Shown here piece after piece: positions 14,318 to 30,879 of a DNA stretch of 64,000 nucleotides. Positions within the stretch are counted from its first letter, which is position 1. Each line of letters begins with the position of its first letter. Where the stretch lies: the NCBI RefSeq assembly GCF_034087045.1, contig NZ_CP139247.1:930001-994000 (forward strand). The letters run 5' to 3'. The notes under the pieces were generated by a model. It was not told the DNA's origin. It was given only the letters and a program-made list of their open reading frames with translations, and did no database searches. This DNA is from Chitinophaga sancti (GTDB lineage: Bacteria; Bacteroidota; Bacteroidia; Chitinophagales; Chitinophagaceae). A program made the translations under genes and the position numbers.

Positions 14318-14908
14318 ATGAAGCAAGTATTCATCGCCACACTGATCACCCTGTTTAGCTGCAGTGCTTTGTTTGCACAGGACAAAAAACTACCGCCACT
14401 GGATTCCAGCCCTATGGACATGGCTTATTATCCCGTAATGTATCCTTATGTTGTAAGAGTAAAAGGAGAACCGGGTGCCCTCGTGGCCCGCGTAATCTAC
14501 AGCCGGCCACAGAAGAAAGGAAGAAAGATCTTTGGCGATCTGGAACCATATGGTGAACTCTACCGCCTGGGTGCGAACGAAGCCACTGAAGTGGAATTCT
14601 ACCGCCCGGTTACAATCGGTGGCAAACTGGTGCCCAAAGGGCGCTACACCATGTATGCCATTCCTAACGAAACAAAATGGACTATCATCATCAACAGAGA
14701 TACTGACATTTGGGGAGCATTCAAATACAGCGAAGCAAAAGATGTAGTAAGGATCGATGTACCAGTGACCAAAATGGATACCCCGGTAGAACCTTTTACC
14801 ATGGTATTTGAGAAAGCTGATTACGGTGCTAATCTGATTATAGCATGGGATGTAGTGAGTGTGAGCCTGCCTGTAAAGTTTAGCAATGCTGCTCCTGTAA
14901 AAAAATAA
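14318..14908 (+). CDS. DUF2911 domain secreted protein
   Basis: The 196-residue protein has a signal peptide (MKQVFIATLITLFSCSALFAQ, cleavage after FAQ) and a DUF2911 domain: VARVIYSRPQKKGRKIFGDL, PYGELYRLGANEATEVEFYRP, KLVPKGRYTMYAIPNETKWTIIIN and DTDIWGAFKYSEAKDVVRIDVP. DUF2911 proteins are periplasmic or surface proteins of Bacteroidota with no established function. The stop at 14906-14908 lies within the A-rich stretch that is the T-tract of a minus-strand small-RNA terminator (entry at 14904-14960), so the two features overlap at their 3' ends. The same hairpin may help terminate this gene on the plus strand. Confidence 0.85.
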   Translation: MKQVFIATLITLFSCSALFAQDKKLPPLDSSPMDMAYYPVMYPYVVRVKGEPGALVARVIYSRPQKKGRKIFGDLEPYGELYRLGANEATEVEFYRPVTIGGKLVPKGRYTMYAIPNETKWTIIINRDTDIWGAFKYSEAKDVVRIDVPVTKMDTPVEPFTMVFEKADYGANLIIAWDVVSVSLPVKFSNAAPVKK

Positions 14909-14960
14909 AAGGCGGTAAGAATACCGCCCACGAATTTTAACCATATCCTATGAAAAACCT
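14904..14960 (-). ncRNA. Candidate small RNA, copy A of a four-copy family
   Basis: On the minus strand this reads: conserved core with CATAGGATATGGTTAAA (within 14933-14960), a short spacer, a GGCGGTATTCTTACCGCC hairpin (14911-14928) and a T-tract TTTTATTTTTTT. Five nt upstream of the core GG is a -7 like box TAATTTCG (14965-14972, 7 of 8). The inferred RNA is about 57 nt. Both flanking protein genes are on the plus strand, so a hairpin plus T-tract pointing to the minus strand is not a protein-gene terminator. Within the core, CATA and TATG can pair around a GGA loop. Compare copies at 27367, 27606 and 28209. Confidence 0.6.
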
Positions 14961-14964
14961 GAAC

Positions 14965-15055
14965 CGAAATTAGACGGAAATACTACGGGAATACTACGGT
15001 ACCCGCTTAACGTGTAAATTTAGTTCGTGAACGTAGCGAATTCATCCGTGTAAAT
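14965..15055 (-). promoter_or_regulatory. Promoter and phased 9-bp repeats of small RNA copy A
   Basis: The -7 box is TAATTTCG (14965-14972). Upstream on the minus strand lie three 9-bp units spaced exactly 21 bp apart. In plus-strand letters they are GCTTAACGT (15005), CGTGAACGT (15026) and CGTGTAAAT (15047). The nearest begins 33 bp beyond the end of the -7 box, as in the other three copies. Nine-bp repeats with 12-bp spacers resemble LytTR-regulator sites. Confidence 0.5.
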
Positions 15056-15118
15056 GATTCAGATAGCAGTTTTTGACTATATGGCTTTTTAGCATACGTA
15101 GTTCTACGCATTTTGCCG

Positions 15119-15150
15119 TTTGTGGGATGTACTGAGGATCGTTACCTTTG
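15119..15150 (+). promoter_or_regulatory. Promoter of the cystathionine gamma-synthase/lyase gene
   Basis: TTTG (15119-15122), 20 bp, then TACCTTTG (15143-15150) is close to consensus, 35 bp before the ATG at 15185. It excludes the longer frame starting at 15113. Confidence 0.65.
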
Positions 15151-15184
15151 GTCCTTTCCTAATAAACTACAAAATCTTACAGGC

Positions 15185-16324
15185 ATGAAGCTGGGAACTA
15201 AACTCATTCACGCGGGAGTAACGCCGGACCCGTCTACCGGCGCCATTATGACCCCCATATTTCAGACCTCCACATATGTTCAAAGCGCCCCCGGCCAACA
15301 CAAAGGTTATGAGTATGCCCGTACCCAGAACCCAACCCGTGACGCCCTGCAAAATGCACTGGCTGCCATAGAAAATGGGAAATTCGGTATCTCCTTCGGT
15401 AGTGGCCTGGCCGCTACTGATGCAGTCATGAAACTCCTGAACCCCGGTGATGAAGTCATTGCCAGCAATGATCTTTATGGTGGCACCTACCGCATCTTCA
15501 CAAAAATATTTGAGCGATATGGCATCAAATTCCATTTCATAGGTATGCAGGATGCGCAGAACATCCGCAATTATATCAATACCAATACAAAGCTGATCTG
15601 GATAGAAACACCTACCAATCCGCTGCTCAACATCATTGACATTGCCGCCTGTGCACACATTGCCGGCGAACATAAAATATTGCTGGCGGTAGATAATACA
15701 TTCGCCTCTCCATACCTCCAGAATCCACTGGATCTGGGTGCCAACATCGTTGTACACTCTGCTACCAAATACCTGGGGGGCCACAGCGATGTGGTACATG
15801 GCGCCATCATCGTTAAAGATGAAGACCTGGCCAAACAGCTATATTTCATTCAAAATAGTTGCGGTGCAGTACCTGGACCACAGGATTGTTTCCTCGTACT
15901 GCGTGGATTGAAAACCCTGCATGTACGTATGCAAAGGCATTGTGAGAACGGGGCTGCGGTGGCACACTTCCTACGCCAGCACTCTAAAGTAGCCAAGGTA
16001 TACTGGTGCGGTTTTGAAGACCATCCAAATCATGCTATTGCTAAAAAGCAGATGCGTGGCTATGGTGGTATGATCTCATTTACGCTGAAAAATGACAGTA
16101 TAGAAGCTGCGACAAAAGTTTTGAGCGGTACCCACCTGTTCTCCCTGGCGGAATCCCTGGGTGGCGTGGAGTCACTGATAGGGCATCCGGCGTCTATGAC
16201 GCATGCCTCTATTCCCCGTGAAGAGCGTATCAGCAATGGTTTAGTGGATTCGCTGATTCGATTAAGTGTAGGTATTGAAGATGCGGATGACCTGATCGCA
16301 GACCTTTCAAAAGCTATTGGATAA
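15185..16324 (+). CDS. Cystathionine gamma-synthase/gamma-lyase family PLP enzyme
   Basis: From the ATG at 15185 the protein is 379 residues and matches the Cys/Met-metabolism PLP family: YEYARTQNPTRDALQ, FGSGLAATDAVMKLL, LYGGTYRIF, IWIETPTNPLL, VDNTFASPYLQNP, and HSATKYLGGHSD, where Lys195 is expected to hold the PLP. The C-terminal part has SLGGVESLIGHPASMTHASIP and RLSVGIED. The enzyme either builds cystathionine from an activated homoserine and cysteine or cleaves it; the sequence alone does not separate these roles. It is cytosolic and tetrameric in the family. A near-consensus promoter and a following terminator make it a single-gene unit. No SAM riboswitch is visible in the short leader. 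Confidence 0.88.
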   Translation: MKLGTKLIHAGVTPDPSTGAIMTPIFQTSTYVQSAPGQHKGYEYARTQNPTRDALQNALAAIENGKFGISFGSGLAATDAVMKLLNPGDEVIASNDLYGGTYRIFTKIFERYGIKFHFIGMQDAQNIRNYINTNTKLIWIETPTNPLLNIIDIAACAHIAGEHKILLAVDNTFASPYLQNPLDLGANIVVHSATKYLGGHSDVVHGAIIVKDEDLAKQLYFIQNSCGAVPGPQDCFLVLRGLKTLHVRMQRHCENGAAVAHFLRQHSKVAKVYWCGFEDHPNHAIAKKQMRGYGGMISFTLKNDSIEAATKVLSGTHLFSLAESLGGVESLIGHPASMTHASIPREERISNGLVDSLIRLSVGIEDADDLIADLSKAIG

Positions 16325-16328
16325 TTGA

Positions 16329-16364
16329 AATCGCTTCTGCCTCAGGCAGGAGCGATTGTTTTTT
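16329..16364 (+). terminator. Terminator after the cystathionine gamma-synthase/lyase gene
   Basis: AATCGCTTCTGCCT pairs with its complement ending AGCGATT around a short loop, followed by GTTTTTT on the plus strand, directly after the stop codon. Confidence 0.8.
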
Positions 16365-16456
16365 GGGGACATCAGTTTTCACAATTTTACTTACTTTCAA
16401 TGCGTCATGTTGCAATCTTATGCGAGCCTACAGACAAACCTAACCGAATAACCACC

Positions 16457-17230
16457 ATGAAATTCCAGCAACTGAAGGCGTTTTTGGATACCAAAGCGGC
16501 ATATTACAATAATCCGGATTTTATAGCCGGAGATCCTATCACGATCCCGCACAGGTTTTCCAAACTACAGGATATCGAGATCGCAGGACTTTTTGCAGCC
16601 ATACTTGCCTGGGGTAACCGGACCACTATTATCAATAAATGCACTGAAATGATGAAGTTGATGGACAACGAACCCTACGACTTCATCAAAAACCACCAGC
16701 CCGGAGAACGTATAAAGCTCATGCAGTTCTGCCACCGGACATTCAACGGGATAGACCTGCTCTATTTCGTCGAGTTCCTGCAGCATTACTATAGTAACGT
16801 CACCTCCCTGGAATTTGCCTTTAGCGGTCACCTGACCCCTAAAGACGAAACCATTGAAAATGCCCTTATAGGGTTTCATAAGATATTCTTTGCCATGGAG
16901 CACCCGGAAAGGACCAGGAAACACATTTCCACCCCCGCCAGGAACTCCGCCTGTAAACGCCTGAACATGTATTTGCGCTGGATGGTCAGAAAAGATGAAA
17001 ATGGCGTGGATTTTGGACTATGGAAACACATTAGCCCTTCACAACTGGTATGTCCCGTAGATGTGCATGTGGGCAGAGTCGCTACCAGACTGGGATTGAT
17101 CTCAGCAGCCAAATCAGACTGGCGAACTGCACTGGAACTGACAGAAAAGCTAAAGCAGCTGGATCCGGAAGACCCTGCCAAATACGATTTTGCGTTGTTT
17201 GGCCTCGGCGTAATAGAAAAATATGTTTAA
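16457..17230 (+). CDS. TIGR02757 (DUF2400) family protein
   Basis: From the ATG at 16457 the product is 257 residues. It shows PITIPHRFSKLQDIEIAGLFAAILAWGNRTTI near the start, the conserved GND/WGNR-type segment, then RFNMYLRWMVRKDENGVDFGLWKHI-like text ending in LVCPVDVHVGRVATRLGLI, all typical of TIGR02757. The family is widespread in Bacteroidota and some Proteobacteria, looks helical, and has no assigned function; a distant link to helix-hairpin-helix DNA glycosylases has been suggested by the DVHV pattern, which I regard as inference. The frame is open back to 16325, but that stretch includes the preceding terminator, so the later ATG is preferred. The next gene starts 13 bp downstream. 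Confidence 0.82.
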   Translation: MKFQQLKAFLDTKAAYYNNPDFIAGDPITIPHRFSKLQDIEIAGLFAAILAWGNRTTIINKCTEMMKLMDNEPYDFIKNHQPGERIKLMQFCHRTFNGIDLLYFVEFLQHYYSNVTSLEFAFSGHLTPKDETIENALIGFHKIFFAMEHPERTRKHISTPARNSACKRLNMYLRWMVRKDENGVDFGLWKHISPSQLVCPVDVHVGRVATRLGLISAAKSDWRTALELTEKLKQLDPEDPAKYDFALFGLGVIEKYV

Positions 17231-17243
17231 AATATATAGCGTA

Positions 17244-18206
17244 ATGATGAAGCGATTTTTTGTGTCAATGGCTCTGGGCGCTACCATGGCCATGCCGGCA
17301 TTTGCACAACAACAGGATGATAAAAGAGATTATGTAGATCTGAGCTACAATTTTCTCAAAGGCCAACAGTTCGAGCTGAAACAGGAAAGCCGCAGCGAAA
17401 CCTATACGACAGTAGATGATGTCATGCAACGCGTAACACGCGATTTCAATAATACCATTGCTATCGAGGTGACCGAAACTTCAGACGGACATGCTACCCT
17501 GACTTTCAAATACAAAGAGCTGAAGTTCAATTTCAATGCACGTAATCAGAACATCCTCGTGGATGCTGCCGTGCCTAATGAAAAAGAACCTTTCCAGGCT
17601 GCCCTGAAAAGTATTATCGATCAGCCATTCTCTGTCGATATATCGTCCTCAGGATACATCAATAAAGTAATGGGGCTGGACGATCTGCTGGACAAAGCAT
17701 CGGCCACCTTCGCAAACCTGAAACCAGATGAGCAGACTGCTTATAAAAAACTGATGAAAGACCAGTTTGGTGCCAATGCATTCCGTACCTGGTTAGAACA
17801 ACTGCTGGTGATCTATCCGGTGCGTAGTATCAAAACAGGTACCCGCTGGGAAGAGAACGTACCTATCCGTACCGGATTGGTAGGAGACATTTCCCTTTAC
17901 TGGAACCTGCAGACATGGGATAGCCAGACAGCAAAGATCAATGGTACAGGTAAGGTCAACACAAATAAAGTAGAGACCTTTACAACCGATGATGGTATAG
18001 AAGCTACTGCTGAAATCAATGGCGATATCATGACGAATTATCTCATAGATCGTACATCAGGATTTCCTAGTATTGCTTCGCAGAATACAGAGATGAATGG
18101 TACGTATACTTACAAAGCGAATAAAGCGAAGAAGATTAAAAGTGATGTGAAAGTACCGGTGAAGATTGTGACGAATGCGTCTTATAAAATTAAAAGAATG
18201 AAATAA
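17244..18206 (+). CDS. DUF6263 family secreted protein
   Basis: From the ATG at 17244 the protein is 320 residues with a signal peptide (MMKRFFVSMALGATMAMPAFAQ, cleavage after FAQ). The mature part is a soluble, beta-rich domain with FKYKELKFNFNARNQNILVDAA, IIDQPFSVDISSSGYINKVMG and a central PVRSIKTGTRWEENVPI segment, matching DUF6263 proteins of Bacteroidota. The family function is unknown; location should be periplasmic. The C-terminus is Lys-rich (KANKAKKIKSDVKVPVKI). It starts 13 bp after the TIGR02757 stop, so the pair is likely cotranscribed. A longer frame from 17223 would overlap the previous stop and extend the signal peptide, so it is disfavoured. Two strong hairpins follow the stop. 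Confidence 0.75.
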   Translation: MMKRFFVSMALGATMAMPAFAQQQDDKRDYVDLSYNFLKGQQFELKQESRSETYTTVDDVMQRVTRDFNNTIAIEVTETSDGHATLTFKYKELKFNFNARNQNILVDAAVPNEKEPFQAALKSIIDQPFSVDISSSGYINKVMGLDDLLDKASATFANLKPDEQTAYKKLMKDQFGANAFRTWLEQLLVIYPVRSIKTGTRWEENVPIRTGLVGDISLYWNLQTWDSQTAKINGTGKVNTNKVETFTTDDGIEATAEINGDIMTNYLIDRTSGFPSIASQNTEMNGTYTYKANKAKKIKSDVKVPVKIVTNASYKIKRMK

Positions 18207-18227
18207 CTAAATAAAGAAATTAAAGCA

Positions 18228-18269
18228 ATTAGCAGCACTATTTTGCTGAAGCAAAATGGTGCTGCTAAT
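18228..18269. terminator. Hairpin 1 of a two-hairpin structure
   Basis: A 19-bp stem beginning ATTAGCAGCAC, with one T-G wobble and a TGAA loop, closes at 18269. No T-tract follows. It shares the bases AAT (18267-18269) with hairpin 2, so the two cannot form fully at once. Confidence 0.6.
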
Positions 18270-18319
18270 CTTTAAAAAAATTGCTGCTGCCATTGGCAGC
18301 AGCAATTTTTTTAAAGATT
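18267..18319. terminator. Hairpin 2, perfect 25-bp arms, bidirectional terminator
   Basis: The arms AATCTTTAAAAAAATTGC... (18267-18291) and their exact complement (18295-18319) enclose a 3-nt loop ATT. GC-rich core GCTGCTGCC/GGCAGCAGC is flanked by A7 and T7, so it can terminate on either strand. It lies 26 bp before the next plus-strand gene. Confidence 0.75.
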
Positions 18320-18345
18320 AAAATGAATAAATTAATACGGATAAA

Positions 18346-18672
18346 ATGCAGCTTTTACCTGAAACAACATTACAACTTGCCGCAGATACTTCCCTCGCAA
18401 TTCCTGATCACATCACCTACGAACAGTTAATAACACTCCTCGCTGCAAAGCTTGAAACAATGATCAATCAAGACTTTCAGCAGTTCGTACTATTGTTGTA
18501 TAAAATCGATGTCGCAGAAAATAAAATAAGACAGGTACTGGCTGATGATACAACCGGAGAGGTCTATCATAAAATTGCTGCCTTGCTCATAGAGCGTCAG
18601 CAGCAAAAAATTATCTCCCGCAAAACCTTTACCAGGCCGGCCAGCGATGACGATGAAGAAGAAAGATGGTAA
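18346..18672 (+). CDS. Conserved hypothetical protein, 108 aa
   Basis: This small acidic protein has a helical pattern: ITYEQLITLLAAKLETMINQDFQQFVLLLYKIDVAENKIRQVL, then IAALLIERQQQKIISRK, and an acidic tail DDDEEERW. Comparable small proteins with an INxDFxxFVxLLYxIDVxE motif are frequent in Bacteroidota genomes, but I know no function. It lacks a signal peptide or membrane helix, so it is probably cytosolic. It begins 26 bp after a very strong terminator-like hairpin, which suggests either an undetected promoter inside the spacer or expression by read-through. It converges on the fatty acid hydroxylase gene with a 1-bp gap. The codon pattern is normal for the region. Confidence 0.7.
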   Translation: MQLLPETTLQLAADTSLAIPDHITYEQLITLLAAKLETMINQDFQQFVLLLYKIDVAENKIRQVLADDTTGEVYHKIAALLIERQQQKIISRKTFTRPASDDDEEERW

Positions 18673-18673
18673 C

Positions 18674-19336
18674 CTATTTATCAAACATCAGTTCACGTAC
18701 TTTCGCTTTATCTTCTTTCTCCTTTTCTAATTCAAATGATGTTTTGAATACCCAATCCCACAAAGAAGAACTTACACCAAACCCTTTCTCTTCTGCCTTA
18801 TAGTGATGCAGATGATGATTGCGCCACAATGGTTTCATAAATTTAAACGGTGGATTCCATGCATGAATCGCATAGTGCATGCTGCCATAAATCAGGTAAC
18901 CTAACATAAATCCCGGAAAGAACATATAAGTGTACTGTCTCAGGAAAATATACTGCACACCAAATATTGCTGATGCCAGTATAAGACTGGGCACAGGCGG
19001 CATAAACAACCGTTGCTTGTCGCGTGGATATTCATGGTGATTACCATGCATCACATAGATAAACCGTCTTACTCTAGGATTCTCACTACTGAAGTGAAAC
19101 AAGTAGCGGTGCATGATGTATTCAAAAAATGTCCAGAAAAACATTGCACCAAAAAAGATCGTTAATACAGTAGTGATGTTAAATCCTAATGAGGTGTTGC
19201 TGTAGTAAAGGCTATACCCGATAATTGGGATGTACATGCCCCAAATCACCAATGGATGTGTTTTGGTGAGCATTTCTAAATAACTGCTCTCAAAAAGCCT
19301 TGCCTGTCCTTTGTTCTTAATCTTATCAAACTTCAT
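18674..19336 (-). CDS. Fatty acid hydroxylase/sterol desaturase family membrane protein
   Basis: From the ATG at 19336 the protein is 220 residues with about four membrane helices and the histidine clusters of the di-iron membrane hydroxylase family: HRYLFH, HGNHHEYP, HYAIH and HHLHHY. The arrangement closely follows fatty acid 2-hydroxylases. In Bacteroidota, which make sphingolipids, a role in alpha-hydroxylation of ceramide or iso-fatty acids is reasonable but inferred. The longest frame uses TTG at 19360, which is inside the -7 box TAATTTTG (19358-19365), so ATG at 19336 is chosen. It converges on the 108-residue hypothetical gene and shares almost no spacer with it. Confidence 0.85.
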   Translation of the reverse strand: MKFDKIKNKGQARLFESSYLEMLTKTHPLVIWGMYIPIIGYSLYYSNTSLGFNITTVLTIFFGAMFFWTFFEYIMHRYLFHFSSENPRVRRFIYVMHGNHHEYPRDKQRLFMPPVPSLILASAIFGVQYIFLRQYTYMFFPGFMLGYLIYGSMHYAIHAWNPPFKFMKPLWRNHHLHHYKAEEKGFGVSSSLWDWVFKTSFELEKEKEDKAKVRELMFDK

Positions 19337-19357
19337 GACTCCCTTTAGATTTTTTTG

Positions 19358-19365
19358 CAAAATTA
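19358..19365 (-). promoter_or_regulatory. -7 box of the fatty acid hydroxylase gene
   Basis: Minus-strand TAATTTTG is a perfect TAnnTTTG match 21 bp before the ATG. Confidence 0.55.
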
Positions 19366-19823
19366 AAAAGCCTTAAAACCCTTTATTCTTCCCGTTATAT
19401 CATTCGCCAAAAATTCATACCCGCTAATATTATGCCGATATTGCCTTCCCTTTCTGTATGAATTTATGAATTACACAAGTGCCATTTTTCGTCCTTTTCA
19501 TATTGATATTTTTTTTTACCTGTATTTGATAAAAAGTATACATTTTATCTCTATACTTAGTCCCATCGGAGATTATTAAAGATTCTCACATATGACATTG
19601 ATCATTAATTTTTTATCCTTAAAGAAGAAAAACTTAACATTTCTATCAAAATAAACTGCCGTGTCATAATGTGGATTTGCTGCCTCAGCAGCGTAGACGG
19701 ATAAATATGTATACAGCAAAAGATCATCAATTGTTGAGAGATTGTCCTTTCTAAATTTCGATATTCTCACTGAAATCACCTATCAATCCACTGCGGGCAG
19801 ATGACCCATTAAAATGTATAAGC
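19366..19823. other. AT-rich divergent spacer, no gene supported
   Basis: This stretch between divergent promoters holds only short frames. The longest (67 codons, minus strand, 19576-19779) starts with GTG and has no recognisable motif or promoter. I see no RNA gene, repeat or mobile-element trace. Confidence 0.5.
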
Positions 19824-19831
19824 TATATTTA
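19824..19831 (+). promoter_or_regulatory. -7 box candidate for the FAH-flavin reductase operon
   Basis: TATATTTA matches 7 of 8 positions of TAnnTTTG and lies 27 bp before the ATG at 19859. Confidence 0.35.
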
Positions 19832-19858
19832 CAAATCATACAACCAGAACGTTATTTT

Positions 19859-20866
19859 ATGAAACTTGTTACTTACCTCCGGGAAGAGAGCGACCAACTG
19901 GCAATATTAGTAGACAACCAGCTCTACAACACCCAGGATCTTCACCCAAATCTCCCCAGCAGTATGCAAATGTTCCTACTCATGTGGGAAGATGTGATCG
20001 ATATTGCAAAGGAAGCCGACGCACAATTAAAAGCAGGCAAACACGTAGGCATCGCTAGTCCCATTCCACTGGAAAAAGTTACACTGATGGCCCCTGTGCC
20101 ATTCCCCAATTCCTGCCGTGATGGTTACGCATTCCGTCAGCACGTTGCTTCTGCACGTCGCAACCGCAGGGTTGAGATGATCGCAGAATTCGATCAGTTC
20201 CCCGTTTTTTACTTTACCAACCACAATGCTATTCAGGGACCAGGTAATGTATATTGCATGCCTGATCACTTCGAAAAACTGGACTTTGAACTGGAAGCTG
20301 CTATCGTAATCTGTAAAGCAGGCCGCAACATTCCTGCTGAAGAAGCAGATGAATACATCGGCGGTTACATGATCATGAATGATATGAGCGCCCGTACCCT
20401 TCAAATGGATGAAATGAAACTGAACATGGGTCCCTGCAAAGGCAAGGATTTCAGCACCGTGATCGGTCCTATGCTGGTGACACCCGATGAACTGCAACAC
20501 CTGCTCAAAGATCCTAAACCTGGTCATACCGGCAATGCTTATAACCTGAAAATGACCTGTCACGTGAATGGTGTGCAGGTAAGCGAAGGCAATATGGCAG
20601 ATATGGACTGGACCTTTGCCGAAATAGTACAGCGCTGCTCTTATGGAGCGAATATCATGCCCGGTGATGTAATTGGTAGTGGTACAGTAGGTACCGGCTG
20701 CTTCCTGGAACTGAATGGTACCGGCAAACTCAATAATCCAGATTATCCTGAACAATGGCTACAGGCCGGTGATGTGGTAGAACTGGAAATTGAAGGGCTG
20801 GGAAAACTGACCAATACCATCGTTGCTGAAGAATCAGATTTTTCGATCCTCAAACTAAAAAAATAA
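19859..20866 (+). CDS. Fumarylacetoacetate hydrolase family protein
   Basis: From the ATG at 19859 the protein is 335 residues. The C-terminal FAH fold shows FRQHVASARRNR, FYFTNHNAIQGPG, FELEAAIVICKAGRNIPAEEA (E-x-E metal ligands), YMIMNDMSARTLQMDE, GPCKGKDFSTVIGPMLVTPDEL and PGDVIGSGTVGTGCFLELN. Family members cleave or decarboxylate beta-keto acids with Mg2+ or Ca2+ in the cytosol. The stop codon is immediately followed by the ATG of a flavin-reductase-like protein, so they are surely cotranscribed; such pairs occur in aromatic amino-acid degradation (tyrosine or kynurenine routes). The exact substrate is inferred only from this pairing. The longer frame from 19814 overlaps the -7 box and is rejected. 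Confidence 0.85.
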   Translation: MKLVTYLREESDQLAILVDNQLYNTQDLHPNLPSSMQMFLLMWEDVIDIAKEADAQLKAGKHVGIASPIPLEKVTLMAPVPFPNSCRDGYAFRQHVASARRNRRVEMIAEFDQFPVFYFTNHNAIQGPGNVYCMPDHFEKLDFELEAAIVICKAGRNIPAEEADEYIGGYMIMNDMSARTLQMDEMKLNMGPCKGKDFSTVIGPMLVTPDELQHLLKDPKPGHTGNAYNLKMTCHVNGVQVSEGNMADMDWTFAEIVQRCSYGANIMPGDVIGSGTVGTGCFLELNGTGKLNNPDYPEQWLQAGDVVELEIEGLGKLTNTIVAEESDFSILKLKK

Positions 20867-21745: not shown

Positions 21746-21747
21746 AA

Positions 21748-21779
21748 AAGCGGTTGCGGCCATCAGCCCCAACCGCTTT
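21748..21779. terminator. Terminator hairpin, shared by convergent genes
   Basis: AAAGCGGTTG pairs with CAACCGCTTT around a 12-nt loop. A poly-A before it is a T-tract for the minus strand (DUF4197 gene). Confidence 0.65.
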
Positions 21780-21781
21780 CC

Positions 21782-21830
21782 AAACTTAAAAGATCAGGGG
21801 TGCCATCGGCGAACCTGATCTTTTAAGTTT
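21782..21830. terminator. Second terminator hairpin with 17-bp arms
   Basis: AAACTTAAAAGATCAGG pairs with CCTGATCTTTTAAGTTT around a 15-nt loop. Its right edge overlaps the DUF4197 stop codon. With the preceding hairpin it separates the convergent genes. Confidence 0.7.
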
Positions 21831-22575
21831 ATTTAGATGTTACACTACCAAACACCTTCTTCAGCAACTCAGAAGTTCTTGCTGCAGGATTTGCCCTGAT
21901 ATTCTTCTCTTCATTCTTAATCTGATCAAACAGCGCATTCACCGCCATACCTGTTACATAATCCTGCAGATCCGGATTTACCTTATTGAAAGTAGTAGGC
22001 AGTTTATTGTAAGAAGTCACGATATCACCATAGTACTTAGTTGCACTTGTACTATCCAGCGCACCTTTCACTACAGGCGAAAACGCAGCCTTCAGCTTTG
22101 CTGTAGTCTTACCTTTAAAGTATACAGTAGCAGAACTATCTGTTCCCTTCAACAGGTTCAGCGCATCTGTAATAGTCATTTCCTTGATCGCATCAACAAA
22201 GATTGGCGCTGCATAACCTACTGCTTTTTCAGCTGCACGGTTGATAGACAGAATTGCCTTATCTACCTGGCTACCCAAACCTACACTTCTCAATGTATTA
22301 CCAATCTTCACCGCATCAGGAGGTAATAACAATTTGTACACTTCACTGCCAAAGAAACCATCCGTCTTATTCAGAGAAGCAATACCTTTTTGCACACCAT
22401 TTGACAATGCCTCCTTGATCGCATTCCCCGCATCTGTCTGCGAAACACCAGAAGTACCGGTTGCACTGCTGGTTGCACTACTTACAGCTTTACTCAAATT
22501 CTTCAGTATCTGGGCCTGAGATACCGTCCCTACAGAAATACCTGCCAAAAACAGAAGACATAGTTTCTTGTACAT
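21829..22575 (-). CDS. DUF4197 domain secreted protein
   Basis: The 248-residue protein has a signal peptide (MYKKLCLLFLAGISVGTVSQAQ) followed by a Ser/Ala/Thr-rich linker and a DUF4197 domain: GNAIKEALSNGVQKGIASLNKTDGFFG, YKLLLPPDAVKIGNTLRSVGLG, INRAAEKAVGYAAPIFVDAIKEMTITDAL and LQDYVTGMAVNALFDQIKNEEKNIR. DUF4197 proteins are predicted periplasmic helical proteins of unknown role, present in Bacteroidota and Proteobacteria. The gene ends in overlapping terminator hairpins and stands alone on the minus strand. There are no catalytic motifs I can name. Confidence 0.85.
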   Translation of the reverse strand: MYKKLCLLFLAGISVGTVSQAQILKNLSKAVSSATSSATGTSGVSQTDAGNAIKEALSNGVQKGIASLNKTDGFFGSEVYKLLLPPDAVKIGNTLRSVGLGSQVDKAILSINRAAEKAVGYAAPIFVDAIKEMTITDALNLLKGTDSSATVYFKGKTTAKLKAAFSPVVKGALDSTSATKYYGDIVTSYNKLPTTFNKVNPDLQDYVTGMAVNALFDQIKNEEKNIRANPAARTSELLKKVFGSVTSK

Positions 22576-22661
22576 ATTGATTGAAGTTGTGGTTTACATG
22601 CAAATTAGTAACAATATTTAATCTACCAATTCAATTAGTGATGAAGGGTAGCTCATCGCAC

Positions 22662-22696
22662 AGCAGCCCCGGATCGCAATGCGATCCGGGGCTGCT
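22662..22696. repeat. 35-bp near-perfect palindrome, strong hairpin
   Basis: Arms of 17 bp (AGCAGCCCCGGATCGCA and its complement) surround a single A. It lies 26 bp past the stop of the universal stress gene and upstream of the DUF4197 gene. Neither side has a T-tract, so a standard intrinsic terminator is not certain. Confidence 0.55.
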
Positions 22697-22722
22697 ACAG
22701 GCTATAAATGTAACGTATTTTC

Positions 22723-23556
22723 CTATTCGTGTATTGCCAGCAATGGGATATGACTGTGAAAAGCCAGCTGAGTAGTCCGGCTCCTTCTGAACATCCCTTC
22801 AAAAAGCCCGTGTTTCCGCGGGATGATAAAGATCAGATCGGCGCCTTCCTTTTCTGAAAAATCCATGATCCCATTCACCACATTCTCATTGTCTACAAAA
22901 TGGTAAATTGGATTATGCCCCTCCAACAGGGTATCCAGCAGTAAACTCTCCATAGGAGTTTCACCTGCCAGCCCTTTCCCGGAATGATCGATGTTTAACA
23001 CATGCAGCTCTGCATTAAAGATGGTGAGCAAACTCTTCAGGGTTCCAATGGGCGTATTTTCCCCTATATGTTTAAAATCACACGCGAATACGATCTTCTT
23101 AATAGGATGGTACACGGCATCTGCTGGTACAATGATCACCGGACAAGCGGTATGCCTGGCCACATCTACCGAATTGGAACCAATGAGAATCTCTTCGAAC
23201 TGACTCCCCCCTTCTGTACCCATTATAATCAGATCGGCCTGCTGATCAATGCAAAATCCATTAATATTTGCTGCCAACAGGTGATTTTCTGCCCGCAGAT
23301 CCAGTATTACATTAGCAGGAATTTCGGTCGCCAGCTCTCTTTGCATCTTTTCCAGCCCTTCTTCACTGGCCGCCTTCAAGTCCTCAGGATCTACCATCGG
23401 AATAGCCGAAGGCATATCCGGCACAGGTACTACCAGCTCATATGCGTGGTACAAAACAACCCGGGAAGCCCCCATCTGGCTTGCCAGTCCCAACGCATAG
23501 CGGGCGGCATTATATGCTGCTGCTGAAAAGTCTGTAGGAACAATAATAGTTTTCAT
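22723..23556 (-). CDS. Universal stress protein, tandem UspA domains
   Basis: The 277-residue protein holds two UspA-type domains. The first (about 1-145) begins MKTIIVPTDFSAAAYNAARYAL and ends with DLIIMGTEGG...SNSVDVARHTACPVIIVPA, close to the ATP-binding G-2x-G-9x-G pattern. The second (about 150-277) begins KKIVFACDFKHIG and ends GADLIFIIPRKHGLFEGMFRRSRTTQLAFHSHIPLLAIHE. Such cytosolic proteins respond to stress and in many cases bind nucleotides. Tandem-domain forms are the norm in Bacteroidota. The gene is divergent from lysS. No operon partner is adjacent, and the regulator is not evident from sequence. Confidence 0.9.
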   Translation of the reverse strand: MKTIIVPTDFSAAAYNAARYALGLASQMGASRVVLYHAYELVVPVPDMPSAIPMVDPEDLKAASEEGLEKMQRELATEIPANVILDLRAENHLLAANINGFCIDQQADLIIMGTEGGSQFEEILIGSNSVDVARHTACPVIIVPADAVYHPIKKIVFACDFKHIGENTPIGTLKSLLTIFNAELHVLNIDHSGKGLAGETPMESLLLDTLLEGHNPIYHFVDNENVVNGIMDFSEKEGADLIFIIPRKHGLFEGMFRRSRTTQLAFHSHIPLLAIHE

Positions 23557-23635
23557 CTCATTACTGTTTTTAGTGTGGAATATGTAGAACCTATGGAATA
23601 AAGAGAAAAATTAATGCCAAAGGGGAGAAAACAGT

Positions 23636-23643
23636 TATTTTTG
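23636..23643 (+). promoter_or_regulatory. -7 box of lysS
   Basis: TATTTTTG is a perfect TAnnTTTG match 27 bp before the lysS ATG and rules out the longer frame starting at 23614. Confidence 0.6.
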
Positions 23644-23670
23644 CACTCCATTATTGTAATCAGTACTTAC

Positions 23671-25185
23671 ATGACATCACTATCTGAGCAAGAGATCATA
23701 CGCAGGGAAAAACTGCAGGAACTGGAAAATGCGGGCATCAACCCCTATCCAGCGGAGGAATATCCCATTAATAATACTGCAGCAAATATTAAAGCAGTAT
23801 ATAGTGAAGAAACAAAAGACCAACTGCAAAACATTTGCGTTGCAGGCCGTGTCATGAAGAAACGGGACATGGGGAAGGCGGCTTTCATAAGCCTCCAGGA
23901 CCATACCGGCACTATTCAGTTGTATATTCGCCGCGATGATATCTGCCCTGGTGAGGATAAGACCATGTTCGATACTGTATTCAAAAAACTGATCGATCTG
24001 GGGGATATTTTAGGTGCTAAAGGCTATGCTTTTGTTACCAAAACAGGCGAATTGTCTATCCACGTTACCCAACTGGATTTTCTCGCTAAATCTCTGCGCG
24101 TACTACCAAACGTAGCTGAAAAAGATGGTGAAACCTTCGATGCCGTAACCGATCCTGAATTCAGGTATCGCCAGCGCTACGTAGACCTGATCATCAACCC
24201 GTCTGTAAAGGATACCTTTATCAAGCGTACGAAGATCATGCAGACCATCCGTGATTTCTACAACGACCTGGGTTACCTGGAAGTAGAAACACCGATCCTT
24301 CAGCCTATTCCTGGTGGCGCCACTGCACGTCCGTTCAAGACTCATCACAATGCACTGGATATTCCATTATACATGCGTATCGCCAATGAGCTGTACCTGA
24401 AACGTTTGATCGTAGGTGGTTTCGATGGGGTGTACGAGTTTGCCAAAGACTTCCGCAACGAAGGTATGGACCGCACCCACAACCCGGAATTTACCGTAAT
24501 GGAAATGTACGCTGCTTACAAAGACTACGAGTGGATGATGCGTACCACAGAAACCTTGCTGGAAAAAATCGCCCTCGCCCTGCACGGTACCACCCAGGTA
24601 CAGGTAGGAGAGAAGGTGATCGACTTCAAAGCACCTTTCCGCCGTGTCACTATGTTTGATGCAATTAAAGAACATACCGGTATCGACATTTCCGAAATGG
24701 ACGAAGCACAGCTGCGCGATACCTGCAAACAACTCGGTATAGGCGTTGCACCTAGCATGGGTAAGGGTAAACTGATAGACGAGATCTTTGGTGAAAAAGC
24801 TGAACACAACTATGTACAGCCTACCTTCATCATTGACTATCCTGTGGAAATGAGCCCGCTCACCAAGAAACACCGTAGCAAACCAGGTCTGGTAGAACGC
24901 TTTGAACTGATGGTAAACGGTAAGGAACTGGCCAACGCTTACAGCGAGCTGAATGATCCTATCGACCAGCGCCAACGCTTCGAAGACCAGGTGAAACTGA
25001 TGGAAAGAGGTGATGACGAAGCGATGTACATAGACTACGACTTCCTTCGTGCCCTGGAATACGGTATGCCGCCAACCTCCGGTATCGGTATTGGTATCGA
25101 CCGTTTGACTATGATCATGACAAACAACCTATCCATCCAGGATGTGCTGTTCTTCCCACAAATGAAACCAGAGAAGCTCCAATAG
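23671..25185 (+). CDS. lysS: Lysyl-tRNA synthetase, class II
   Basis: From the ATG at 23671 the protein is 504 residues. The N-terminal OB-fold anticodon-binding domain (about 50-150) has VAGRVMKKRDMGKAAFISLQD. The class II catalytic core includes motif 1 around RTKIMQTIRDFYNDLGYLEVETPIL, motif 2 as FRNEGMDRTHNPEFT, and motif 3 as GIGIGIDRLTMIM. It charges tRNA-Lys in the cytosol. The final LFFPQMKPE is typical of bacterial LysRS. An ATP-dependent HIGH/KMSKS pair is absent, confirming class II. The start is fixed by the promoter box and by a standard N-terminal length. A terminator follows within 25 bp. Confidence 0.97.
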   Translation: MTSLSEQEIIRREKLQELENAGINPYPAEEYPINNTAANIKAVYSEETKDQLQNICVAGRVMKKRDMGKAAFISLQDHTGTIQLYIRRDDICPGEDKTMFDTVFKKLIDLGDILGAKGYAFVTKTGELSIHVTQLDFLAKSLRVLPNVAEKDGETFDAVTDPEFRYRQRYVDLIINPSVKDTFIKRTKIMQTIRDFYNDLGYLEVETPILQPIPGGATARPFKTHHNALDIPLYMRIANELYLKRLIVGGFDGVYEFAKDFRNEGMDRTHNPEFTVMEMYAAYKDYEWMMRTTETLLEKIALALHGTTQVQVGEKVIDFKAPFRRVTMFDAIKEHTGIDISEMDEAQLRDTCKQLGIGVAPSMGKGKLIDEIFGEKAEHNYVQPTFIIDYPVEMSPLTKKHRSKPGLVERFELMVNGKELANAYSELNDPIDQRQRFEDQVKLMERGDDEAMYIDYDFLRALEYGMPPTSGIGIGIDRLTMIMTNNLSIQDVLFFPQMKPEKLQ

Positions 25186-25210
25186 TCTTCTCTTTCAACC
25201 TTATATCCAA

Positions 25211-25240
25211 AAAAATCCGGCTCTTAATGGCCGGATTTTT
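25211..25240 (+). terminator. Terminator after lysS
   Basis: AAAAATCCGG and CCGGATTTTT arms with a 10-nt loop; the T-run completes it on the plus strand. Confidence 0.8.
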
Positions 25241-25261
25241 AATTTACAACAAATCCGATCT

Positions 25262-27367
25262 ATGCAATTACGTCACTTTACCCACTACATGGCAGCCCTG
25301 GGGCTGTTATCCGCTCCACTATGCGCCCAGGATAAAAAAGACCTTACCTACGAACAGATCTGGAAAAATGCCCCTTCCGGCATTTCCCAGCCACTACCCA
25401 ACATAACCGGTTGGGCGGATGACACACATTATATCGAAGTGCGCAATGGCAAGTCTTACACAGTAGATGTAAAGACCAGTGCAGCGACCGACTATTCCCA
25501 GGCCGGCATTGCCGTATCTGTAAAGGATCACGACATTATCTACACAGCTGCTGATGGTACTACTACACAACTTACAAACGATACGCTCACAGAAAAGAAT
25601 CCTACGATCTCTCCTGATGGGAAATATGTAGCGTTTACCCGTCACAATGACCTATATAGCGTAGAAATAGCCACCAAAAAGGAAACCCGCTATACCAGCG
25701 ACGCTTCTGACGTAGTATACAATGGTTACGCCTCCTGGATCTATTATGAAGAAATCCTGGGCCGGGCCTCCCGCTACCGTGCTTTCTGGTGGAGCCCCAA
25801 TAGCCGCTACCTGGCTTACATGCGTTTTGACGACTCACAGGTACCCGTATTCCCTATTTACAGCGAAAAAGGGCAGCACGGCTTCACAGAAAATACCCGT
25901 TATCCAAAAGCCGGTGATAAAAACCCGGAAGTGAAAGTAGGCGTGGTACCCGTAGCTGGTGGTGCTACCACCTGGGCAGCTTTTGACGAAAAGGCAGATC
26001 AATACTTCGGTACCCCATACTGGACAACCGACAACCATCTATGGATGCAATGGATGAACAGGGGACAGGATAACCTGAAGATTTACGATATCAACCTGGC
26101 CACCGGCGCTAAAAAGGAAGTGTACGATGAAAAACAGCCAACCTGGATCGACTGGAAGGATGGAATGACTATTCTTGAGAAAGGCAAAGGATTTATTATG
26201 AGAAGTGATAAAACAGGCTGGTCACACCTGTACTGGTACAATATGGATGGCTCTCTCAAAAAGCAACTGACTTCCGGCAACTGGACGGTGAACTATACCG
26301 TGGCCCTGGATGTAAAACAGGAACAACTCTACTTCGTAGCAAGAAAAGAAGCTTCTACCCGCACAGATCTTTATAAGGTAAACCTGAATACAGGGGCAAT
26401 TACCCGCCTCACCTTCGGCGAATACTACCATGCTACGACTGTAAGCCCGCATGGCGACTACTTCATTACCACCTATTCCAACCTTAATACACCTGCCCGC
26501 ATTGCGCTGGTAGACAACAAAGGCAGGGTAATCCGTGAATTGGGTGATAGCAAAGGCGCTCAATTAGCCAGTTACAACCTGGCCCTGCCCAAATTAATGA
26601 CTTATACTACCCGCGACGGGTTGACCCTGCCCATGACGGTGACCATGCCACTACATATGCAGGAAGGCAAAAAATATCCTGTACTCATCAGTATCTATGG
26701 AGGGCCTAATGCAGGCACCGTATACGATCGCTGGAATGGCAACCTGACCGCACAATGGTGGGCCGAAAAAGGTATTATCCAGGTGGTAATTGATAATCGT
26801 AGCTCTGGCCAGCTGGGTAAAATGGGCATGAACTACATCCATCGCAAAACGGGTATCTATGAAATCGAGGATTATATGGATGCTACCAAATGGCTCCGTT
26901 CCCAGGCGTATGTAGATACAAACAAGGTTTGCATCACAGGTGGCAGCTTTGGGGGTTATATGACCTGTATGGCGCTGACCTATGGCGCTTCCGTATTCAA
27001 CTATGGTATGGCGAACTATTCGGTGACCGACTGGCAGCTCTACGATAGCCATTATACTGAAAGATATATGGATACCCCTGCCGAGAACCCTGAAGGTTAT
27101 AAAATCACTTCGCCTATGCACTACCTGGACCGTTATAAGGGATTAATCAGGATCGTACATGGCACCATGGACGATAACGTACATATGCAGAACAGTATCC
27201 AGTTAATAAATATGCTGGAAGACATGAATAAGCATTTTGAATTTATGTTAGTTCCGGGAGAGCGTCATGGGTGGAGAACCAGTATCAAGATGAAGCATAG
27301 TGATATGGAGATGTACCGGTTTATCTATCGCTATTTACTGGAAGAGCCGTTTCCGGCAGAGTTATAA
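25262..27367 (+). CDS. S9 family peptidase, dipeptidyl peptidase IV type
   Basis: The 701-residue protein has a signal peptide (cleavage near LCAQ), a DPP IV N-terminal beta-propeller (about 60-440; e.g. TISPDGKYVAFTRHNDLY, YNGYASWIYYEEILGR, RYRAFWWSPNSRYLAYMRFDDSQVP) and a C-terminal alpha/beta-hydrolase domain. The catalytic triad is visible: Ser562 in GGSFGGY, Asp637 in HGTMDDNVH and His669 in GERHGW. The EE pair in YYEEILGR matches the double-Glu motif that anchors the substrate N-terminus in DPP IV. It would remove Xaa-Pro or Xaa-Ala dipeptides from peptides in the periplasm. It stands alone, after the lysS terminator and before the two small-RNA copies. Confidence 0.92.
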   Translation: MQLRHFTHYMAALGLLSAPLCAQDKKDLTYEQIWKNAPSGISQPLPNITGWADDTHYIEVRNGKSYTVDVKTSAATDYSQAGIAVSVKDHDIIYTAADGTTTQLTNDTLTEKNPTISPDGKYVAFTRHNDLYSVEIATKKETRYTSDASDVVYNGYASWIYYEEILGRASRYRAFWWSPNSRYLAYMRFDDSQVPVFPIYSEKGQHGFTENTRYPKAGDKNPEVKVGVVPVAGGATTWAAFDEKADQYFGTPYWTTDNHLWMQWMNRGQDNLKIYDINLATGAKKEVYDEKQPTWIDWKDGMTILEKGKGFIMRSDKTGWSHLYWYNMDGSLKKQLTSGNWTVNYTVALDVKQEQLYFVARKEASTRTDLYKVNLNTGAITRLTFGEYYHATTVSPHGDYFITTYSNLNTPARIALVDNKGRVIRELGDSKGAQLASYNLALPKLMTYTTRDGLTLPMTVTMPLHMQEGKKYPVLISIYGGPNAGTVYDRWNGNLTAQWWAEKGIIQVVIDNRSSGQLGKMGMNYIHRKTGIYEIEDYMDATKWLRSQAYVDTNKVCITGGSFGGYMTCMALTYGASVFNYGMANYSVTDWQLYDSHYTERYMDTPAENPEGYKITSPMHYLDRYKGLIRIVHGTMDDNVHMQNSIQLINMLEDMNKHFEFMLVPGERHGWRTSIKMKHSDMEMYRFIYRYLLEEPFPAEL

Positions 27368-27433
27368 AAAAAGAAACGGGGCTGCAAGACTACAGCCCCG
27401 AAAAATTTTAACCATATCTTTATTGAAAAACCT
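27367..27433 (-). ncRNA. Candidate small RNA, copy B of a four-copy family
   Basis: On the minus strand: conserved core (27403-27433, with GATATGGTTAAAATT), a CGGGGCTGTAGTCTTGCAGCCCCG hairpin described by its ends CGGGGCTG and CAGCCCCG (27377-27400), and T-tract TTTCTTTTTT. The core loop differs from the other copies (CAATAAAGATATG instead of CATAGGATATG) but still pairs, with one bulged A. The terminator stem sequence also differs from the other copies while keeping all pairs. The spacing from -7 box to core is again 5 nt. The DPP IV gene ends at the 3' edge of this unit on the other strand. Confidence 0.6.
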
Positions 27434-27437
27434 ATAC

Positions 27438-27528
27438 CAAAGGTGCACGTATTTTGAATACAGGCAAAACCCATTCTGGTGAATGCTATATTTTTGTTTG
27501 GGAACGTAATAAAAAGGAAGTTAAACGT
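27438..27528 (-). promoter_or_regulatory. Promoter and phased 9-bp repeats of small RNA copy B
   Basis: On the minus strand TTTG (27465-27468), exactly 19 bp, then CACCTTTG (27438-27445). Upstream, in plus-strand letters, GGTGAATGC (27478), TGGGAACGT (27499) and GTTAAACGT (27520) follow a strict 21-bp period. The first starts 33 bp beyond the end of the -7 box. Confidence 0.55.
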
Positions 27529-27605
27529 ACCGGCTTTTGAAGGGGAAAATCAGTTTTTGAGGGGGGAACGTAACAGATGAGCCGTTAATGGTTGTACCTG
27601 CCTAA

Positions 27606-27669
27606 AATATAGAAGGGCGGTAAGAATACCGCCCTTGTAATAATTTTAACCATATCCTATGAAAAACCT
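27606..27669 (-). ncRNA. Candidate small RNA, copy C of a four-copy family
   Basis: The minus strand reads conserved core with CATAGGATATGGTTAAA (within 27642-27669), then a hairpin with arms AAGGGCGGTA/TACCGCCCTT (27613-27636) and a weaker T-rich tail CTATATTTT. A perfect -7 box TATCTTTG is 5 nt upstream of the core GG. Core and terminator are nearly identical to copy A. It lies downstream of csaA on the same strand, so csaA transcription could also run into it; the internal promoter argues for independent synthesis. Confidence 0.6.
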
Positions 27670-27673
27670 AAGT

Positions 27674-27743
27674 CAAAGATATAGTCTACAAAAATGAGTT
27701 ATCTTCCTATTTCCGTGAACGTTATAAAATAGTTCGTAAAACA
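27674..27743 (-). promoter_or_regulatory. Promoter and phased 9-bp repeats of small RNA copy C
   Basis: -7 box TATCTTTG (27674-27681, minus strand, perfect). In plus-strand letters CGTGAACGT (27714) starts 33 bp beyond the end of the -7 box, and CGTAAAACA (27735), a weaker match, follows 21 bp later. Confidence 0.5.
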
Positions 27744-27840
27744 GTAAGAATGAAGAGGTCAGCTGATATATATCAAATAAGATAATATTAATTAATTTTT
27801 AAATTGTAAATATTCTTAATTACTAATCAATACACCATTA

Positions 27841-28179
27841 TCATCCTACTTGCAGGCCATTCCGGACCGCCCTGTCTGGCTGTAACAACACTACTTCTTT
27901 ATCTGCACCCACTACACCGAGTACCAGGCATTCAGAGAAGAAATTAGCCACCTGCTTCACTGGAAAATTCACTACAGCAACCACCTGTTTGCCGATCAAC
28001 GTCTCTTCACTATATAATTTGGTGATCTGGGCAGATGAACGCTTAATGCCCACCTCAGGGCCAAAGTCAATTAATAACTGGTAAGCGGGATTCTTTGCCT
28101 TGGGAAAATCGGCTACTTCTATAATGGTTCCTACCCGAATGGCTACCTTTTCAAAATCCTGCCACGTAATCTGTTCCAT
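27841..28179 (-). CDS. csaA: CsaA-like tRNA-binding-domain protein
   Basis: The 112-residue protein is a single OB-fold EMAP/tRNA-binding domain: FEKVAIRVGTIIEVADFPKAKNPAYQLLIDFGPEVGIKRSSAQIT, then IGKQVVAVVNFPVKQVANFFSECLVLG and the end VVLLQPDRAVRNGLQVG. Length and motifs match CsaA, described as a dimeric export-related chaperone in Bacillus subtilis and a tRNA-binding protein structurally. It is cytosolic. No promoter box is obvious immediately upstream; instead small-RNA copy D ends about 30 bp before the ATG, so csaA may be expressed by read-through from that unit. Copy C lies downstream on the same strand. Confidence 0.9.
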   Translation of the reverse strand: MEQITWQDFEKVAIRVGTIIEVADFPKAKNPAYQLLIDFGPEVGIKRSSAQITKLYSEETLIGKQVVAVVNFPVKQVANFFSECLVLGVVGADKEVVLLQPDRAVRNGLQVG

Positions 28180-28208
28180 ATTGTTTTGATATTGAGGTAT
28201 TAAGATAA

Positions 28209-28265
28209 TGAAAAAAGGCGGTAAGATTACCGCCTAATAATTTAACCATATCCTATGAAAAACCT
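28209..28265 (-). ncRNA. Candidate small RNA, copy D of a four-copy family, upstream of csaA
   Basis: The minus strand has the conserved core (28239-28265, CATAGGATATGGTTAAA), hairpin AGGCGGTA/TACCGCCT (28216-28235) and a T-tract of six. The -7 box is TATATTTA (28270-28277, 7 of 8), 5 nt before the core GG. Its T-tract ends about 30 bp upstream of the csaA start on the same strand, so here the unit could be either a free small RNA or an attenuating leader. Confidence 0.6.
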
Positions 28266-28269
28266 ATTG

Positions 28270-28339
28270 TAAATATATACTGACCGTTTTGTAGAAAAAC
28301 CTGCCATTTAGTGAATGTTATAATATTGCCGGTGAATGC
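28270..28339 (-). promoter_or_regulatory. Promoter and phased 9-bp repeats of small RNA copy D
   Basis: -7 box TATATTTA (28270-28277, minus strand). In plus-strand letters AGTGAATGT (28310) begins 33 bp beyond the end of the -7 box, and GGTGAATGC (28331) follows exactly 21 bp later. Confidence 0.5.
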
Positions 28340-30862: not shown

Positions 30863-30879
30863 ACTCAACTTTCATTTTT

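Follow-up and report, generated by a model that had tools for sequence, protein, structure and literature searches.

The 64,000-nucleotide stretch of Chitinophaga sancti DNA analysed here (contig NZ_CP139247.1, positions 930,001 to 994,000 of the forward strand; called the window) carries four short units, A to D, on its minus strand. Re-reading the window sequence placed all four where a sequence-only reading had put them, as members of a multicopy family of tiny small RNAs (sRNAs) with their own promoters and terminators. The parts follow one another in the same order in each copy, also as described there: a −7 box, exactly 5 nt, a GG that opens the 5′ core, and a terminator hairpin with a T-tract. 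The sRNA gene family to which they belong is widespread, has no Rfam family over the cut-off, and is FopS-like in its layout and 5′ end.

Copy A occupies 14902..14959, with its core at 14959–14936 and its terminator stem at 14929–14910, followed by the T-tract. Its −7 box, TAATTTCG (14965..14972), lies 5 nt before +1, in keeping with the position profile of 56 copies. Upstream, a direct-repeat region (14995..15033) holds the TT of two sites at approximately −71 and −50, the downstream one reading TTAAGC. Copy B (27367..27432) has a variant core, GGTTTTTCAATAAAGATATGGTTAAA, a terminator stem at 27400–27377, the −7 box CACCTTTG at 27438..27445 and a direct-repeat region at 27469..27507. Copy C (27606..27668, stem 27636–27613) is preceded by the −7 box TATCTTTG (27674..27681) and by 21-bp-phased direct repeats, TTTACGAAC...CGTTCACGGAA (27711..27740), which match the repeat pattern given below at genome positions 957711–957740. 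Copy D (28209..28264, stem 28235–28216) has the −7 box TATATTTA at 28270..28277 and 21-bp-phased direct repeats at 28300..28339. The direct repeats had gone unmentioned in the sequence-only reading. All these features are on the minus strand, and the +1 G of the cores falls at 14959, 27432, 27668 and 28264 for A to D, respectively. Copy A does lie between two plus-strand genes, one of them a DUF2911 gene and the other encoding an enzyme of Cys/Met metabolism. Copy B extends to the 3′ end of a dipeptidyl-peptidase-IV-like gene. A tRNA_bind-domain gene of the same strand, which we take to be CsaA-like, has copies C and D on either side, with copy D upstream of it.

An exact 22-mer core is common to three of the window copies and occurred in none of 100 shuffles of the window. 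The core of copy B deviates from it and carries the variant CAATAAAGATATGG. The predicted fold of each copy is more stable than those of its dinucleotide shuffles (z −2.5 to −3.5), mostly through the terminator hairpin. Terminator-like sites number 15 in 13.9 kb against 12.1 in shuffles, and thus a lone site of this kind is no evidence. A fifth exact-core copy is found at position 5812405 of the genome (8.32 Mb, one contig). The genus covariance model R1, built from the 44 different RNA sequences that 56 distinct Chitinophaga copies provide, gave 31 matches in the genome at E≤10 and added four divergent relatives at 2171386, 811340, 8290276 and 5039198 (E 4.5e-5 to 0.13), which start with GGTTTTTATTAGGATATGG, GGGTTTTCATAGGATAGTAA (twice) and GGTTTTCATAGGATAGATAA. 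This brings the members counted in the genome to nine. Three of the 22 non-member matches were read (4078859, 1812776 and 7394647; E 0.028 to 0.22) and were dropped, as they are without the core.

The exact core is present in 36 of 36 genomes of the genus, with 3–17 copies each, and in none of the 23 genomes that represent the order's other families; the reversed core gave 0 in all 59 genomes. Since this search demanded the core, its invariance there is partly selected; the model search is free of this flaw. The covariance search that the sequence-only reading had proposed extends the family well past the genus: at E≤0.1, R1 matches 210 of 244 genomes and 94 of 101 genera of the family Chitinophagaceae, counts that are not sorted per genome and whose weak matches may include plain terminators. 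Twenty-five loci from outside the genus were read. Seven have a genus-like core, and 18 are of a sister type, GGUUUUUCAUAGGAUAUUGGA, or near it. The sister type (GGUUUUUCAUAGGAUAUUGGAUUU) makes up most of the loci read in other genera of the family, and 16 further loci belong to it with the exception of L084, in which the GG is replaced (AATTTTCATAGGATAAGG). A further type, TTTTCATAGGATAAGGTTTAA(T/G)GG, was seen in other genera (L084, L086, L074 and L156); its linker is longer in the last three, and a sister-type copy lies next to it in L086 and L074.

Named species genomes, scanned for an exact 17-mer, gave at least 118 stretches, of which 80 loci with 82 sites were examined. By their titles, 49 of the 80 loci come from Chitinophagaceae or a genus that we place there, 30 bear wider Bacteroidota names, and one is from an alphaproteobacterial metagenome-assembled genome (MAG), at a site with no terminator. 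The 17-mer continues as TGG (sister type) at 68 of the 82 sites and as GGT (genus type) at 10. All 10 of the latter are in records titled Chitinophaga, and two records titled Chitinophaga pinensis MAG have the sister type instead.

A second model, R2, was made solely with sequences of the family, 40 units out of 99 collected. Of 395 phylum genomes, it matches 150 at E≤0.05. The 14 loci read outside the family look like ordinary terminators or chance matches and were rejected, with a partial core in two of them (L135 and L136). A class-wide promoter-plus-seed pattern matches 93 of the 395 genomes, with controls not summed; the 28 matches read comprise four units of the family, six of FopS type in one other family (f30) and one each in families f130 and f140, one candidate in family f99, and 15 that are not units. 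The f99 candidate (L521, genome G918) reads TTTGAGCAGTTTTTCATAGTAGGTTGG followed by a GC-rich hairpin and a T-tract, and is possibly a FopS-like sRNA of another family.

The profile of the 56 genus copies shows a −7 box with T fixed at −8, A at −12 in 80 percent and G at −6 in 71 percent. No clear −33 element was found in these copies (at most 0.43 bits per position from −40 to −14), and two TTNAC-type elements stand at approximately −71 and −50. The strict box TANNTT[TC] is present in 59 of 76 genus copies; one of the window boxes fits it exactly (TATCTTTG), and three deviate. A downstream TTNNC site at approximately −50 is seen in 74 of the 76 copies, and 58 of these 74 have a second one exactly 21 bp upstream, the next commonest distance being found in 12 copies. 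The repeat pattern TTYAC-N15-GTTYAC-NRAA gave 131 matches in 40 genus genomes, compared to 23 for its reverse. It revealed a copy with a variant core, GGTTTTCATAGGATAGTTTAAAA, in genomes G018 and G019 (loci L567 and L568), which the core pattern had missed. As matches to the repeats lead to a variant-core sRNA copy, the promoter and the RNA form a unit. Three of nine repeat-pattern regions fetched are not sRNA promoters (L570, L572 and L573). A looser repeat-pair pattern gave 14 matches in a 464-kb sample of the genome and four when reversed; two of the 14 are window copies.

The hairpin and T-tract are present in 59 of 62 genus copies, and the terminator loop, NUCU, is mostly kept. Among 44 genus copies, two-sided changes occur in 8 of 10 stem pairs (at most 3 in slid registers), and in the 40-sequence family set they occur in 10 of 10 (at most 8). 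The structure was hand-drawn, so slid registers are the fairer control. In 80 genome-contig loci with 81 usable core sites, an RNAfold test found the terminator at 78 of 81 core sites and at 7 of 480 random sites; the strict −7 box was found at 48 of 81 and at 41 of 2000, respectively. The sequence-only reading had named a core kept without box and terminator as evidence against the family. The terminator remains with the core almost throughout; the strict box is lacking at 33 of the 81 sites. Of the three sites that fail the terminator test, a hairpin can be made out by eye in two, L228 being the exception. These sequence comparisons support the view that, across the family, the promoter and the core go along with the covarying terminator, and the idea of a multicopy sRNA family with its own promoter and terminator holds. 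Tandem arrays of four to six copies at a spacing of approximately 190–260 bp were also seen (L575, L574, L567 and L568), with repeat-bearing promoters before several array copies in L567, L568 and L574.

The best explanation as a whole, to which we give a probability just above even, is that the units are FopS-like base-pairing sRNA genes under LytTR-type control in Chitinophaga. They would form a family of intergenic sRNAs of approximately 57–67 nt, each made from its own Bacteroidota sigma-type promoter. Transcripts are predicted to run from the conserved GG to an intrinsic terminator of their own. By analogy with FopS of Bacteroides, the conserved and largely single-stranded 5′ end would be the working part. 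Start regions of the (U)AUGAAAAA(C) type are common in exported and lipoprotein genes, and the first 12 nt of the RNA (GGUUUUUCAUAG) are able to pair with them; the likeliest action would be a block of translation initiation in a set of such mRNAs. The next stretch, GAUAUGGUUAAA, probably contacts an RRM protein or serves as a second seed. In Chitinophaga, a LytTR-type regulator probably acts via the two 21-bp-phased repeats at approximately −72 and −51. A larger number of copies, also in tandem arrays, would increase the dose. We infer both the transcription and the function of the family from sequence.

The putative regulator is suggested by the spacing. In S. mutans, LytTR repeats of 9 bp are separated by a 12 bp spacer, which gives a period of 21 bp (PMC6193735, Table 2). 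In the window's genus, too, a pair of short direct repeats with this period lies immediately before the promoter. In the Bacteroides examples of that paper, 11 bp repeats are separated by an 11 bp spacer, which makes the period 22 bp, in contrast to the 21 bp seen here.

No Rfam family reached its gathering cut-off in the window. The closest relative found is FopS (RF04319), a family of paralogous sRNAs of the Bacteroidaceae. It leads the Rfam matches of copy A, end to end, at 28 bits (E 0.021 with 301 bases, 0.0066 with 96 bases). The gathering cut-off is 56 bits, and nothing in the genome is over it. The best score in a genome-wide FopS search was also 28 bits (E 0.14), and other places reached 28 and 27.5 bits. 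Since 28 bits is reached elsewhere in the genome, this score is not distinctive and alone proves little. Flavo-1, a Bacteroidota RNA that had been put forward for comparison, is absent among the Rfam matches of copy A at E≤10 and at the cut-off in the window. DapZ (RF02551) is short, ends in an intrinsic terminator and has GAU.UGGUUA in common with the units; however, it scores 30.1 of 56 bits (E 0.07), and its first hairpin is not formed here. The matches to DapZ, MicX and L20-leader rest largely on the terminator, lie far below cut-off and were rejected.

A literature search by sequence led to the FopS paper alone. As described in PMC11697453, B. thetaiotaomicron has 14 FopS sRNAs, which pair near the start codon and repress susC-type translation, and the RRM protein RbpB counteracts this repression. 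These paralogs of approximately 65–70 nt have a terminator and no small open reading frame (sORF); the Chitinophaga family, at 57–67 nt, is slightly shorter. Both are multicopy short sRNAs with a canonical −7 box and a hairpin terminator, an sORF is excluded for both (same paper), and both have a single-stranded 5′ end with GUUUUUCAUAG. They differ in that the complete UUAGAUUUAAGGUUAACAAA block is not shared, the terminators are different, the taxa are others, the window's genus has direct repeats upstream, and the score is 28 of 56 bits. The R1′ consensus of FopS given in that paper, GTGTTTTTCATAGTATTAGATTTAAGGTTAACAAA, is not reproduced, with only GTTTTTCATAG and fragments in common. GibS of Bacteroides thetaiotaomicron shares the R1 seed with FopS according to the same text, and by that description a distant likeness of the 5′ end extends to it; GibS itself has an R2 seed and a PM2 promoter.

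Other sampled genomes allow the two families to be compared from both sides. FopS is over its cut-off in 2 of 296 phylum genomes, both in family f30, where the genes read GTGTTTTTCATAGTATTAGATTTAAGGTTAACAAAGG plus a hairpin, after TATCTTTGCA or similar. R2 was run on 21 of 30 loci found with the FopS model and gave 20 hits at E≤1; 18 coincide with the FopS-model hit on the right strand, and two are on the opposite strand. Seventeen of the 18 are in the two f30 genomes (E 0.007–0.22), being paralogs and not independent, and the remaining one is L156 (E 7e-8). L155, L177 and L179 gave no hit. L156, a locus of the Chitinophagaceae, scores with both models (E 0.0015 with FopS, 4e-6 with R2). When consensus sequences were aligned to FopS, the sister type was beaten by 1 and 0 of 5000 dinucleotide shuffles and the type III consensus by 5 and 8. 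L155 and L156 beat all 5000 shuffles; they were found with the FopS model and are not counted as evidence. We call the family FopS-like and do not assign it to FopS itself.

The likeness could also have arisen by convergence, with unrelated families each evolving a 5′ end complementary to AUGAAAAA starts. We give this a substantial probability that falls short of even; it concerns descent and is compatible with the explanation preferred above. It fits the unmet FopS cut-off, the undistinctive 28 bits, the different terminators and the lack of a convincing intermediate in other sampled families among the matches read. Against it, the likeness of the sister type extends past UUUUUCAUAG (UAUU.GAUUU), the 5′ position and the architecture are the same, the family locus L156 matches both models, and the family model R2 recovers 17 FopS-model hits. 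Should the likeness reflect descent, FopS and the Chitinophagaceae family might be two branches of an old Bacteroidota 'anti-start-codon' sRNA class, which we put forward tentatively. An unstructured UUUUUCAU 5′ end would target the AUGAAAAA starts that are typical for exported proteins. In some lineages whose repertoires of surface proteins are very large, the genes would have multiplied to at least a dozen copies, and in Chitinophaga they would have come under a LytTR-type regulator. If so, one signal would throttle a broad set of surface proteins.

Pairing with start regions was examined in 464 kb of the genome, with gene starts from a simple open reading frame caller. The complement of an 8-mer of the core is present in 34 of 300 gene starts; the corresponding counts are 9 of 900 for windows inside genes and 5 of 299 for windows upstream. 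Shuffled complements occur at a mean of 8.1 gene starts, and 0 of 200 reach 34. The signal lies in core positions 1–12. The core gives better duplex energies at the starts than 30 shuffled versions of the seed do (−8.54, sd 0.62). FopS binds RbpB, an RRM protein, and six RRM_1 matches, in separate open frames and one of them partial, are found in the genome. Three RRM_1 matches lie side by side at 719132–719908.

Several results weigh against the FopS-like base-pairing reading. The 11 FopS matches listed for the genome at E≤10, with 150 of the 892 candidates scored, do not include any of the five copies, and FopS is not listed for the loci of the five copies at E≤1, where DapZ led with 30 bits. 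The genus type aligns modestly with FopS (48 and 26 of 5000 shuffles score better), as does the copy-B type (104 and 123 of 5000). The enrichment at starts stems mostly from the common start ATGAAAAA and could exist without any sRNA. The mean duplex energy at the 300 starts is no better than in gene interiors (−9.91 vs. −9.86). The whole-core antisense TCCTATGAAAAAD was tried and is not enriched, with 100 matches against 167 for its reverse in the 40 genus genomes. The ATGAAAAA start is seen in 5 of 30 SusC loci read (of 56) against 19 of 300 (p 0.054), a count by eye of any printed ATG that favours SusC. Copy B has lost the anti-AUG letters (CAA for CAU). Taken together, a short 5′ seed is plausible from the sequence, and target pairing overall is weakly supported. 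Long pairing is unsupported, and a different role is called for in the second half of the core.

Alternatively, the RNA could be a protein-titrating sponge, whose core binds and sequesters an RRM protein and pairs with no mRNA. The core is more invariant than would be expected from pairing with varied targets alone, extended pairing is not enriched, RRM_1 genes are present, and the units are multicopy and form tandem arrays, all of which suits a sponge. Nevertheless, the first 12 nt fit gene starts, and FopS, for which pairing with start regions has been published (PMC11697453), retains the 5′ end as UUUUUCAU. We consider a sponge unlikely.

A mobile repeat, or a set of stand-alone terminators in place of sRNA genes, is very improbable. 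Multiple copies, tandem arrays and one unit on a viral-labelled contig could be read in this way. The promoter and 5′ core, however, are kept along with the terminator, and the flanks of the five copies (exact or in the window) are dissimilar outside the promoter elements. As in the window, one copy lies approximately 10–17 kb from a copy-B-variant cluster in many genus genomes among the matches listed (for example G007, G012, G003 and G001); this spacing was not seen in G008 and G005 among those matches. A segment of 501 bases around copy A had no match in 72,556 plasmid records. A viral scan gave at least 120 stretches, and among 80 loci examined, the extended core was found in three and a full unit in one. 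The latter is L358 (IMGVR_UViG_3300037418_003161, 236 kb, viral-labelled), a complete sister-type unit with a −7-like box and a terminator. It could be phage-borne, or the contig could be mislabelled host. That the units encode small peptides (MVK...), flanked by a leader and a terminator, is already contradicted and hardly credible: ATGGTTAAA does lie within the genus core, but frame and length differ among 60 copies translated, the reading frame at the core ATG is not conserved, the sister type has no ATG there, and the stem changes are compensatory.

To our knowledge, little is known about the sRNAs of environmental Bacteroidota, and topic searches of the literature on them listed no directly relevant work. 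A family with matches in 94 of the 101 sampled genera (E≤0.1), and with no Rfam family over cut-off, provides defined genes, promoters and a seed to test. On the preferred reading, as FopS-like base-pairing sRNAs, a control circuit of gut Bacteroides could extend to soil and water bacteria. Elsewhere in the window, two tandem related glycosyltransferase-like genes, so named from translations read by eye, lie on the plus strand at 29813–31923.

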